This document shows, in pieces, positions 40,446 through 53,557 of a DNA stretch of 64,000 bases. Under the pieces are notes generated by a model. That model was not told the DNA's origin. It made no database searches and worked only from the letters and a program-made list of their open reading frames with translations. The stretch is from Leucobacter weissii (GTDB lineage Bacteria > Actinomycetota > Actinomycetes > Actinomycetales > Microbacteriaceae), in NCBI RefSeq assembly GCF_017565745.1, contig NZ_JAGDYM010000003.1:124001-188000 (forward strand), given 5' to 3'. The translations under genes and the position numbers were made by a program. Position 1 is the stretch's first letter; every line of letters starts with the position of its first letter.

Positions 40446-40518
40446 GCCCTGGTAGCTCAGTGGATAGAGCACTTCTCTCCTAAAGAAGGTGTCGGAGGTT
40501 CGATTCCTCTCCAGGGCA
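40446..40518 (+). tRNA. tRNA-Arg (anticodon CCT)
   Basis: The acceptor GCCCTGG pairs with CCAGGGC. The D arm is GCTC/GAGC, the anticodon stem is CTTCT/AGAAG with loop CTCCTAA, and the T arm GGAGG/CCTCT encloses TTCGATT. CCA is not encoded (ACA follows). Its last 22 bases and 11 more downstream are duplicated at 40717-40749, a pattern typical of an integration site. Confidence 0.95.
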
Positions 40519-40749
40519 CAAGCTGTTGAGCCGAGCGGAAAGCAAGCTTGCTTGCTCGACCGGGGCGGTTGAAGTCTGTCGAATGGTGCGCAGCACCATG
40601 AATACTCGTTTCGCTCGTGCCCTGTCGAGGCGATTCGATGAACCTTGAACGTGGCTTGCGAGCAAGCCACGCGCCGTGACCGCGCAACGCGATGCGTTGC
40701 TTTGAGCGGTCGGGCGGGTTCGATTCCTCTCCAGGGCACAAGCTGTTGA
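40497..40749 (+). repeat. 33-base direct repeats flanking a structured insert at tRNA-Arg
   Basis: A 33-base sequence beginning GGTTCGATTCCTCTCCAGGG is present at 40497-40529 (within and just past the tRNA) and again at 40717-40749, identical in both. Between them lie 187 bases of hairpin-rich DNA. This looks like duplicated target or attachment-site DNA left by an integration at the tRNA 3' end. Confidence 0.9.
40530..40716 (+). repeat. Structured multi-hairpin element, copy A
   Basis: The hairpins in order are AGCAAGC-TT-GCTTGCT (near 40541), TGGTGC-GCA-GCACCA (near 40583), CGTGGCTTG-CGAG-CAAGCCACG (40650-40671) and a nested hairpin (40676-40712). The nested one has inner stem GCAACGC-GAT-GCGTTGC, bulge TTTGA, and outer pairing GACCGC/GCGGTC. 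The last two hairpins match copy B at 53120-53182 with compensatory changes. There is no protein-coding potential. The stretch 40614-40645 also resembles an inverted, diverged copy of the tRNA 3' end. Confidence 0.75.
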
Positions 40750-40806
40750 CTCAAAGAATCCCTGGTCAGATGCCATTTATGACCCATGTTTTCTTTCGCA
40801 TCAAGG

Positions 40807-51620: not shown

Positions 51621-51663
51621 GCGCCGAAGCCCAGCCGACGACGAACCGAGAGTGATAGGGATC

Positions 51664-53094
51664 ATGGAACCCACCGTTTTTGAGAAGAACCGACCGGCGG
51701 ACGCGATCATCGACGCGTCGCTCGCCGAGACGAGGCTCTCCTGCTTCTGGATCGAGGATGTCGCGGAGCGCGCCGCCCGCTATCCGAGACTGGGCGGTGA
51801 CCTCAACGCCGACTACGCGGTGGTGGGCGGCGGCTACGCCGGGCTCTGGACCGCGATCAAGCTCAAGACCGAGCACCCCGAGCGACGGGTCGTGCTGCTC
51901 GAGGCCAAGCGCGTGGGCTGGGCGGCGTCGGGCCGCAACGGCGGCTTCTGCGAGGCGAGCATCACCCACGGCGAACCGAACGCCGAGGCCCGCTGGCCCG
52001 ACGAGGTCGACGCGCTTGCGCGCCTCGGGCACGAGAACCTCGACGCGATCGAGCGCTTCGTGACCGAGCACGAGCTCGACGTCGACTTCGAGCGCACCGG
52101 GCAGCTGTCGGTCGCCAACGAGCCCTACCAGCTCGACGAGTTCGAGGGGATCGACGCGGCCGACGAGGATCACGTCGTGCTCGACGCCGATGCCGTCCGG
52201 GCGCGGATCGACTCGCCGACCTTCCTCGGCGGGGTGTTCTCGCCGCGCGAGAACGCCAATGTGCATCCCGCGAAGCTCGCGGCCGAGCTGGCCCGGCACG
52301 CGGCCGAGATCGGCGTCGAACTCCACGAGGAGACCAGGATCACCCGCCTGGCCGGCCGGCCGGACGAGGCGATCGAGCTCGAGACCGCCGAGGGGATCCT
52401 CGTGCGCGCCGACAAGGTCGCCCTGTGCACCAACGTGTTCCCCTCGCTGCTGAAGCGGTACGCCTTCCACACCGTGCCCGTCTACGACTACGTGCTGCTG
52501 ACCGAACCGCTGAGCGACGAGCGGCTCGCCTCGATCGGCTGGTCGGGGCGGGAGGGCCTGGCCGACGGCGCCAACCAGTTCCACTACTCGCGGCTCACCA
52601 AGGACAACCGGATCCTCTGGGGCGGTTACGACGCCGTCTATTTCCCGGGCGGACGGATCAAGCGCGAATACGAGGATCGACCGGAGAGCCACCGCAAGCT
52701 CGCGAGCCACTTCTTCACCACCTTCCCGCAGCTGGCCGGCGTGAAGTTCACGCACCGCTGGGCGGGAGTGATCGACACCTCGACGAGATTCTGCGCCTTC
52801 TGGGGGCAGGCGCACGGCGGACGCGTGCAGTACGTGGCCGGGTTCACCGGTCTCGGGGTGGGGGCGACCCACTTCGCCGCCGACGTCATCGTCGACCGTC
52901 TCGAGGGGCGCACCACGGAGCGCACCGAGCTCGAGATGGTGCGGGACGTCCCACTGCCGTTCCCGCCCGAGCCGCTGGCCTCGATCGGCATCAACCTCAC
53001 CCGCTGGTCGCTCGACCAGGCCGACCACAACAACGGCAGGCGCAACGTGCTGCTGAAGACGCTCGATGCCGTGGGATTGGGGTTCGACTCATGA
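51664..53094 (+). CDS. FAD-dependent amine/amino-acid oxidoreductase (DAO family)
   Basis: In this 476-residue protein the FAD-binding dinucleotide motif is in YAVVGGGYAGLWTAIKL, followed by ASGRNGGFCEASI near the flavin. The substrate domain and GFTGLGVGATHFAAD close the FAD site. It resembles gamma-glutamylputrescine oxidase and related DAO enzymes. The ATG at 51664 gives a 40-residue lead before the Rossmann fold; GTG at 51652 is possible. Its end (GLGFDS, stop TGA) lies in a 16-base sequence repeated 107 bases on, where a structured element has been inserted between it and the cupin gene. Confidence 0.85.
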   Translation: MEPTVFEKNRPADAIIDASLAETRLSCFWIEDVAERAARYPRLGGDLNADYAVVGGGYAGLWTAIKLKTEHPERRVVLLEAKRVGWAASGRNGGFCEASITHGEPNAEARWPDEVDALARLGHENLDAIERFVTEHELDVDFERTGQLSVANEPYQLDEFEGIDAADEDHVVLDADAVRARIDSPTFLGGVFSPRENANVHPAKLAAELARHAAEIGVELHEETRITRLAGRPDEAIELETAEGILVRADKVALCTNVFPSLLKRYAFHTVPVYDYVLLTEPLSDERLASIGWSGREGLADGANQFHYSRLTKDNRILWGGYDAVYFPGGRIKREYEDRPESHRKLASHFFTTFPQLAGVKFTHRWAGVIDTSTRFCAFWGQAHGGRVQYVAGFTGLGVGATHFAADVIVDRLEGRTTERTELEMVRDVPLPFPPEPLASIGINLTRWSLDQADHNNGRRNVLLKTLDAVGLGFDS

Positions 53095-53201
53095 TGCTCT
53101 CCGTCGACCGCGATGTTCTCGTGGCCCGTCACCGGGCCACGCGCCGCGGCCGCGCAACGCGCTGCGTTGCTCCGAGCGGCCGGGCGGGGTTCGACTCATG
53201 A
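53079..53201 (+). repeat. Structured two-hairpin element, copy B, with 16-base direct repeats
   Basis: GGGGTTCGACTCATGA is present at 53079-53094 and again at 53186-53201, with 91 bases between. The insert contains hairpin CGTGGCCCG-TCAC-CGGGCCACG (53120-53141) and a nested hairpin (53146-53182) with inner stem GCAACGC-GCT-GCGTTGC, bulge TCCGA and outer GGCCGC/GCGGCC. These match copy A at 40650-40712 with compensatory changes. Removing one repeat and the insert restores a perfect ATGA stop/start overlap between the two genes. Confidence 0.85.
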
Positions 53202-53557
53202 CCGAACTGCTGCCCGGGGGACAGAACGGCGTCGTGCACGGCCGCGGCGCGATCGTGCCGCTGGAGCCCGTGCCCGCCGCGGAGATCGACCACGGCTCCC
53301 CCCGGCAGGGGGCGATCGACCTCGGCGCGATCGGCGGAGCCGAGGTCGGCATCTGGGAGCTCCGCGACGGCGCCGTGGTCGACACCGAGATCGACGAACT
53401 GTTCGTCGTCATCTCCGGCGGGGCCACGGTCGAACTGCTCGACGAGGGCCGCAGCGTCGACGTGAAGACCGGCGATGTGATGCGCCTCACCGCGGGCACC
53501 CGCACGCGCTGGACCGTGGAGGACCACATCCGCAAGGTCTACCTCGCCGCGGAGTAG
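53198..53557 (+). CDS. Cupin-domain protein
   Basis: This 119-residue single cupin has the motif region WELRDGAVVDTEIDELFVVIS, with an Asp-Glu pair in place of some cupin His ligands, followed by GDVMRLTAGTRTRWTVEDHI. It resembles small cupins paired with DAO-type oxidases, so it probably works in the same amine or amino-acid breakdown pathway. The ATG at 53198 lies in the right-hand 16-base repeat. Before insertion of the structured element it would have overlapped the oxidoreductase stop. Confidence 0.82.
   Translation: MTELLPGGQNGVVHGRGAIVPLEPVPAAEIDHGSPRQGAIDLGAIGGAEVGIWELRDGAVVDTEIDELFVVISGGATVELLDEGRSVDVKTGDVMRLTAGTRTRWTVEDHIRKVYLAAE

Follow-up and report, generated by a model that had tools for sequence, protein, structure and literature searches.

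Folded non-coding repeats between duplicated gene ends in Leucobacter, a candidate non-autonomous mobile element

Introduction

Two short sequences in the genome of Leucobacter weissii can be folded into the same pair of hairpins, one just downstream of a tRNA gene and the other between two protein genes. What is this element, which strand of it folds, and how did it come to lie at these gene ends? Both sequences, copy A (40650-40716) and copy B (53120-53185), are within the window, the whole stretch of 64,000 nucleotides that was analysed, and both are members of a larger family. A first-pass annotation made from the letters alone reported compensatory base changes between the two copies and proposed that the fold, as RNA or as single-stranded DNA, is under selection.

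Results

Copies A and B share a fold and lie between direct repeats

The base changes between the copies are as the first-pass annotation claimed: two compensated pairs in stem 1, one compensated pair in the outer part of hairpin 2 (GACCGC/GCGGTC in A, GGCCGC/GCGGCC in B), and an inner stem, GCAACGC/GCGTTGC, that is identical in both. The one-sided bulge, TTTGA in A and TCCGA in B, is also present. However, the bases that follow it are GCGG, and the GAGCGG given in that annotation counts the GA twice. We found that positions 40640-40725 as RNA fold with an energy of -48.9 kcal/mol (z -4.94; 0 of 200 shuffles matched it) into the expected stems with the 5-nt bulge, closed by a helix of GAACC (40640-40644) with GGTTC (40717-40721). 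The core pattern of hairpin 2, with up to 3 mismatches, occurs in the window in A and B only (0.00 in shuffles).

Beyond what had been noted before, both copies are flanked by direct repeats of their target, which gives them the appearance of a mobile element (Table 1). Copy A has 33 bp of the tRNA-Arg end on both sides and copy B has 16 bp of a protein-gene end, GGGGTTCGACTCATGA, on both sides. Without the repeat, A is 187 bp long and B is 91 bp long.

Table 1. Features at copies A and B, with positions in the window.
Feature	Position	Strand	Basis
tRNA-Arg (anticodon cct), host gene of A	40446..40519	+	ARAGORN, Rfam RF00005
A, first direct repeat (DR1), tRNA T-arm to just beyond tRNA 3' end, 33 bp	40497..40529	+	exact repeat
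A, imperfect inverted copy of target start (GTGCCCTG..GAACC), pairs with DR2	40617..40644	+	complementary-strand fold, z -6.13
A, hairpin 1, stem 1 CGTGGCTTG/CAAGCCACG	40650..40671	+	sequence, fold
A, hairpin 2 arm: CGCC/GGCG, TGACCGC/GCGGTCG, 5-nt bulge TTTGA (40701-40705), inner stem GCAACGC/GCGTTGC	40672..40716	+	folds, covariation, match to model R1
A, second direct repeat (DR2), 33 bp, identical to DR1	40717..40749	+	exact repeat
FAD-dependent oxidoreductase gene, last codons and stop within B DR1	51652..53094	+	ORF list, PF01266
B, DR1 GGGGTTCGACTCATGA, 16 bp	53079..53094	+	exact repeat; site unoccupied in relatives
B, short inverted complement of target start (GTCGACC)	53103..53109	+	minimum-energy DNA fold; centroid pairs GTCG only
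B, hairpin 1, stem 1 CGTGGCCCG/CGGGCCACG	53120..53141	+	sequence
B, hairpin 2 arm, bulge TCCGA (53171-53175); final G doubles as first base of DR2	53142..53186	+	sequence, pattern, model R1, DNA fold
B, DR2, 16 bp, identical to DR1; contains ATGA of next gene's start	53186..53201	+	exact repeat
Cupin gene; in many relatives its start overlaps the upstream stop at the unoccupied site	53198..53557	+	PF05899; related sites

That the first-pass annotation recognised no named family agrees with our searches. Rfam release 15 at the gathering cut-off returned only tRNAs in the window and in 6 further copy-bearing loci, and a search of the A region (40521-40760) at the low threshold of E up to 10 returned no match. 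No description of this repeat family was found in the portions of the literature consulted, and the portion of PMC3733652 consulted has 0 occurrences of "leucobacter" and of "actinobacteria".

A fragment of a TrwC-type relaxase (PF08751, 43998-44642) lies about 3.2 kb downstream of A and is perhaps the remnant of a conjugative element.

The fold is conserved among copies from related genomes

Since A and B alone are little proof of selection, the case for it was built on larger sets of copies from related genomes, judged against shuffled and slid controls rather than with R-scape. A BLAST search with A alone gave 19 places, and 17 of them make up the smallest set; left out were L006, a near twin of L005, and L031, which has no core. 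In this set 7 of 18 pairs had changed on both sides, with 27 double-changed cells compared with a shuffled mean of 7.0 (0 of 500 shuffles), and 94.8% of cells were paired, compared with 29-47% when the partner was slid by 1-3 columns. A set of 34 copies, partly chosen by a pattern that fixes the inner stem, gave both-side changes in 9 of 18 pairs and 63 double-changed cells against 24.2 in shuffles. In a set of 75 copies, in which copies more than 90% alike had been reduced, the figures were 14 of 18 pairs, 187 double-changed cells against 67.2 (0 of 500) and 89.3% paired against 28-46% in slid versions. This last percentage is somewhat flattered, because many of the 104 copies behind the set came from loci first found by the hairpin 2 covariance model R1, which rewards pairing; for this reason the count was repeated on the 17 BLAST-only copies, with the same result. 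The number of further pair types did not exceed that of shuffles in any of the three sets. Together these data show that the fold is conserved and under selection, as the first-pass annotation had proposed from two copies. Neither of the two outcomes that the annotation had named as refuting its claim, a larger alignment lacking covarying pairs or a hit to a known family, was seen.

The 104 copies were obtained from 225 profile hits, of which 155 scored at least 14, by merging identical stretches, and many of their loci came from among the R1 matches listed. Omitted before the profile step were 31 loci from pattern scans that were by eye chance matches or the Curtobacterium repeat described below, including the Leucobacter locus L063, which has no clear outer stem.

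The inner stem occurs among the copies as GCAACGC, GAAACGC, GCAAAGC, GCGACGC, GCAAGGC or GTAACGC, each with its own complement. In the outer helix, columns 4, 6 and 7 lack a pair in many of the 75 copies (30, 19 and 42, respectively). The bulge is 5 nt long in 72 of the 75, 4 nt in L183 and L194 and 6 nt in L209, and it usually ends in a purine followed by A. Hairpin 1, upstream of hairpin 2, varies in sequence; 60 of the 75 windows taken there fold below -10 kcal/mol, with a median z of -2.6 against a two-base-block shuffle, and its stem was found by rule in 53.

Direct repeats start at a nearly fixed distance from hairpin 2

A direct repeat scoring at least 16 was found in 74 of the 104 copies, compared with 21 of 1560 cross-locus comparisons between unlike targets, and the repeats of 72 copies were above the 99th percentile of this null. 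No clear repeat was found in 30 copies. The repeat alignments are 16-95 bp long, where the length is that of the best local alignment and is shortened wherever the repeat reaches the 22 nt beside hairpin 2. In 67 of the 74 the repeat starts 0-3 nt into the downstream stretch, so that the position of the right junction hardly varies with respect to hairpin 2.

The hosts of these copies are varied. Genes for tRNAs, as identified by ARAGORN, host 30 of the 74 repeat-bearing copies (Gly 9, Thr 8, Ser 4, Arg 3, Val 3, Leu 2, Met 1). The remaining 44 include copies at the ends of protein genes such as htpX and fabG, names that are our own reading of the translated ends, and some at tRNA-like tails where ARAGORN saw no tRNA body in the piece.

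The second repeat stops short of hairpin 1 in 46 of the 74 copies, extends into hairpin 1 or hairpin 2 in 22, and is not classifiable in 6. A pure repeat of the target is clear in L036 (62 bp) and L073 (59 bp), where it ends ahead of the inverted arm. Some of the 22 are tandem arrays and others are a full unit with a truncated unit, often ending inside a hairpin. For these a single target duplication is insufficient; re-insertion at an occupied site, rolling synthesis of more than one unit, or later loss of a hairpin could account for them. A distant repeat or a gene-bearing copy was sought in 16 longer loci and none was found. Separately, L261 (genome G003) and L262 (G054) hold tandem arrays of units of about 86 bp with both hairpin 1 and hairpin 2.

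Occupied and unoccupied sites

The gene upstream of B is present in 54 of 54 Leucobacter genomes. We fetched 30 of these loci and found a profile match at the locus of this genome only. In all 29 loci from other species the junction motif is uninterrupted. The stop of one gene and the start of the next overlap (ATGA or GTGA) in 18 of these loci, and 17 have GGTTCGA; an example is GGGGTTCGACTCATGAGCGAACTGCTGCC, the sequence of L271 and L279. In at least 5 of the 29 (L280, L282, L284, L286, L289) other sequence lies downstream. Because the same 16 bp stand on each side of the element, both genes at the B site keep their ends. These results show that B is an insertion with target duplication.

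At the tRNA-Arg site the profile matched 2 of 30 loci, that of this genome and L140 (one unit and a partial second), and by eye L146 retains a partial unit. Downstream of htpX the profile matched L298, L300, L315 and L320 among 30 loci. By eye, L305 holds a decayed copy, L321 holds a left arm and hairpin 1 without hairpin 2, and the other 23 loci hold no element (L307 was unreadable). Copies in several species at htpX have similar left arms, and it looks as though these copies were partly inherited with homogenisation rather than newly inserted.

In genome G049 (L147) a different tandem repeat, with four units of about 65 bp shown, is at the 3' end of the tRNA-Arg gene that hosts A. In L026 (genome G017) and L081 the sequence upstream of an element at a tRNA-Arg-like end resembles by eye the C-terminal part of a tyrosine integrase. 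About 40 kb separate the tRNA-Arg of G017 from its element, which would fit integration of a prophage or an integrative and conjugative element (ICE) into the first repeat. The idea that the element belongs to a prophage with its integrase at the same tRNA was dropped on account of this separation and of the copies at protein genes.

The left arm of many copies is complementary to their own target

We found that many copies carry, immediately left of hairpin 1, an inverted and imperfect version of their own target's start. It is interrupted by a bulge that is often 5 nt long (CCTGA, TCTGA, TTCGA and CCCGA are examples), pyrimidine-rich and of the same type as the bulge of hairpin 2. Against a null of unlike loci, complementarity to the target was above the 95th percentile in 44 of 104 copies and above the 99th in 26, and the other 60 were at or under the 95th. 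Element and target together form a three-way junction made of the target helix, the bulge, a 6-bp helix, hairpin 1 and the bulged hairpin 2. Among nine of the better copies, chosen by hand and folded as RNA of the strand read, most gave the junction clearly, L058 and L174 less so, and L043 in a variant register. Copy A forms the three-way junction as DNA on the complementary strand (z -6.13). The arm of B is short, and the centroid structure retains part of it only.

Copy B has a hairpin 1 of the CGTGGC type, as A has, and a target, GGTTCGACTC, that agrees by eye with the tRNA sequence GGTTCGATTC at 9 of 10 bases. It thus looks like a tRNA-Arg-type element, of the kind of A, that landed off target.

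Stem mismatches lean to the complementary strand

The first-pass annotation had left open whether the fold acts as RNA or as single-stranded DNA. We counted mismatches in the stems of the strand read and found 14 A.C and 2 G.T in hairpin 2 and 4 and 3, respectively, in hairpin 1. The total of 18 against 5 gives p 0.011, for 23 mismatches in a comparison that was chosen after the table had been seen and that ignores relatedness; L183, L194 and L209 were left out since their bulge length shifts the register. An A.C on the strand read is a G.T on the other strand, and the strand whose fold is selected should tolerate G.T more than A.C. The excess of A.C thus weakly suggests that the folded strand is the complementary one, antisense to the host gene. 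We take this bias as favouring folded single-stranded DNA, the alternative being an antisense RNA. The sparse evidence on this point therefore leans to the complementary strand, probably as DNA.

Distribution of the element

Model R1 has matches in 31 of 54 Leucobacter genomes, with 19 in this genome and 21 in the richest. The exact core pattern in a species collection gave 48 stretches: 18 from Leucobacter, 5 from the metagenome-assembled genome (MAG) LEU1, 1 from a Microbacteriaceae MAG, 2 from Curtobacterium and 22 from other taxa, the last of which look by eye like chance matches. A broader model, R2, was run on 398 genomes drawn from the family and matched 12 of them at E up to 0.01, 3 from Leucobacter and 9 others. 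Among the matches read outside Leucobacter, one at a tRNA-Gly (L331, genome g35) has the whole architecture including the repeated tRNA end, one (L328, g77) is an array of three units of 114 bp, and one (L231, g61) has the hairpin in reverse orientation adjoining a repeated tRNA end, as has L232 (g53), a locus from outside the R2 matches. Three (L329, L330, L332) look like coding sequence, and those in genus g46 are a Curtobacterium-like repeat.

This Curtobacterium-like repeat, seen in L056 and L083 (Curtobacterium) and in L225, L226, L228 and L235 (g46), is dispersed near gene ends and has a like inner stem with a 3' bulge of 5-6 nt. L056, L225, L226 and L228 have a second long hairpin upstream. 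No direct repeat was seen at these six loci.

Searches by blastn with the A region found no match in phages or plasmids, and those with the L058 unit found none in plasmids. In viral contigs one core pattern hit 6 contigs, none with a clear repeat alongside, and two variant patterns hit 0. Within the reach of these searches we reject the possibility that the element is phage or plasmid cargo.

Two further kinds of repeat were seen. In this genome a pair of hairpin 1 and hairpin 2 was seen by eye inside miniature inverted-repeat transposable element (MITE)-like units at L005 (about 1350-1640, contig C26) and L006 (about 1405-1670, contig C19), whose terminal inverted repeats are AGGGCATGTCTCG and AGGGCACGTTGAATAGGTCCG; here another transposon may have brought the pair with it. 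Downstream of the element in L043 a further repeated hairpin (AAAACGCGAAGCGTTTTCGACCGGAG) is present in two copies.

Searches for a helper enzyme

A Y1 transposase (Y1_Tnp, PF01797) was detected in 0 of 54 Leucobacter genomes, and the same search was positive in 5 of 14 control genomes. Reverse transcriptase (RVT_1, PF00078) was detected in 8 of 54 genomes, and this genome and the copy-rich G000, G046 and G064 gave no match, for a model that divergent reverse transcriptases could escape. The IS91-type Y2 transposase (Y2_Tnp, PF04986) was detected in 1 of 54 (G066), which is the only sign that this search works (0 of 14 controls), and not in this genome. With no matches, RAYT/Y1, IS91/Y2 and RVT_1 enzymes were rejected as present-day helpers in this genome.

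Discussion

Our data favour, at a probability of roughly 55%, the reading that A and B are a non-autonomous mobile element that acts as a folded strand in recombination supplied in trans. Such an element would insert close to the 3' end of its host, a tRNA or protein gene, with the tail of the gene copied on each side and the gene left whole. Its active form would be one folded DNA strand, probably the complement of the strand read. A recombinase or endonuclease supplied in trans may recognise the two bulged arms and cut at the foot of hairpin 2 and at the start of the target, where pairing with the target would pick or steady the site. The repeat might then arise as a long staggered break is copied or repaired. 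This reading draws on the covarying fold, the near-fixed junction, the repeats, the unoccupied B site, the target arm, the strand bias of the mismatches and a patchy distribution (31 of 54 genomes, at most 21 matches each). Against it stand the lack of an enzyme match and of any distant repeat or gene-bearing copy in the 16 longer loci, the further pair types that stay within the shuffles, the 30 of 104 copies without a clear repeat and the 22 of 74 with run-on repeats, as well as the 60 of 104 without a significant target arm, the shortness of the arm of B and the similarity of the htpX arms across species.

Other readings divide the same evidence differently. We hold only tentatively that the element is a guide-directed single-stranded-DNA element, in which the target-complementary arm and the target strand complete a three-way junction with two alike bulged recombinase sites; pairing would set the insertion point and the long staggered break would duplicate the gene tail. 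If so, this would be a gene-less element that homes to the 3' ends of genes and occasionally retargets among them. A special case of the mobile-element reading, which we regard as unlikely, is that a site-specific tyrosine recombinase acting on hairpins uses these as its folded attachment sites, as in the logic of integron attC sites, with small cassettes at T-arm-like sites. Two arms with one-sided 5-nt bulges around a junction, the bias to folding of one strand and the T-arm targets, which are typical of tyrosine integrases, all fit this, but the core boxes of attC are not in the expected place and no cassette gene was seen. It is quite improbable that the element is a SINE-like retroelement whose RNA ends in hairpin 2 and is reverse transcribed by target priming from a nick at the target start. 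The near-fixed 3' junction, repeats of 16-95 bp and variable 5' part are what this would give, as is a repeat that ends where a terminator-like hairpin ends in L036 and L073. However, the copy-rich G000, G046 and G064 have no RVT_1 match (8 of 54 genomes do overall), the stem mismatches speak for the antisense strand of the target gene, and in 22 of 74 copies the repeat enters the element itself.

The two readings that do without mobility account for less of these data. Hairpins downstream of genes might have been duplicated and homogenised by replication slippage and gene conversion, and the tandem arrays, the partial second units ending inside hairpins and the like left arms at one site across species would then be expected. 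We give this little credence, since the junction of hairpin 2 with the target is near-constant at many unrelated targets and B is a clean gain at a site that is unoccupied in 29 other species. A cis-acting RNA serving the transcript of the host gene, as terminator, stabiliser of the 3' untranslated region or attenuator, seems to us very unlikely: the position after gene ends and the strong RNA folds agree with it, but the mismatch bias opposes the sense strand, many orthologous sites are without the element and the repeats would be left unexplained.

If the mobile element is moved by an enzyme that reads hairpins, it offers dozens of natural pairs of target and arm for studying the choice of site. 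It also makes the T-arms of tRNAs a landing place for something besides phages and ICEs. Like phages and ICEs that integrate into tRNA genes and leave blocks of identity at attL and attR, the element is at the T-arm, repeats the 3' end of the tRNA and preserves the gene. Unlike them, the A and B inserts are non-coding, below 0.2 kb and without an integrase inside, and the family is also found at protein-gene ends of unrelated sequence.

Comparison with small elements shows similar partial likenesses. MITEs are small, non-coding and mobile in trans, as this element would be, but they have terminal inverted repeats and duplications of 2-9 bp; here the outer inverted arm, in copies that have one, follows the target and is not alike at unlike targets, no terminal inverted repeats are shared and the direct repeats are 16-95 bp. 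IS200/IS605 elements move by peel-and-paste transposition and are not known to duplicate their target. They too have bulged hairpins near their ends and short sequences that pair with the cleavage or target site, whereas the element studied here has direct repeats in 74 of 104 copies, longer pairing that varies from site to site and no match to a Y1 gene. REP and REPIN sequences, linked to RAYT, a Y1 HUH enzyme, are likewise small, dispersed, non-coding hairpins with mismatches or bulges that are thought to be mobilised in trans; the Leucobacter element differs in its target repeats, its target-complementary arm and its near-fixed junction at a hairpin with a 5-nt bulge. According to the portion of PMC3733652 consulted, REPs have a GTAG or CGTC tag at the hairpin foot, and neither of our alignments of hairpin 2 with its feet (A1 and A2) shows such a tag conserved. 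The element fails a tested defining feature of REP, IS200/IS605, IS91 and MITE elements.

Integron attC sites are folded single strands with extrahelical bases between short helices, which the Leucobacter element would resemble. These sites carry core boxes, whereas the Leucobacter element has none where they would be expected, has no cassette open reading frame that we saw and stands alone at gene ends. Non-LTR retroelements and SINEs resemble it in their conserved stem-loop at the 3' junction, in a 5' part that varies and in target duplications that are long and of variable length; it differs from them in being bacterial and in the lack of an RVT_1 match in G000, G046 and G064. None of the known kinds compared has all four of a fold that covaries, an arm complementary to the target, a bulged hairpin at an almost constant junction, and long repeats of the target that spare the gene. 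We rate the element as a new kind by its architecture.
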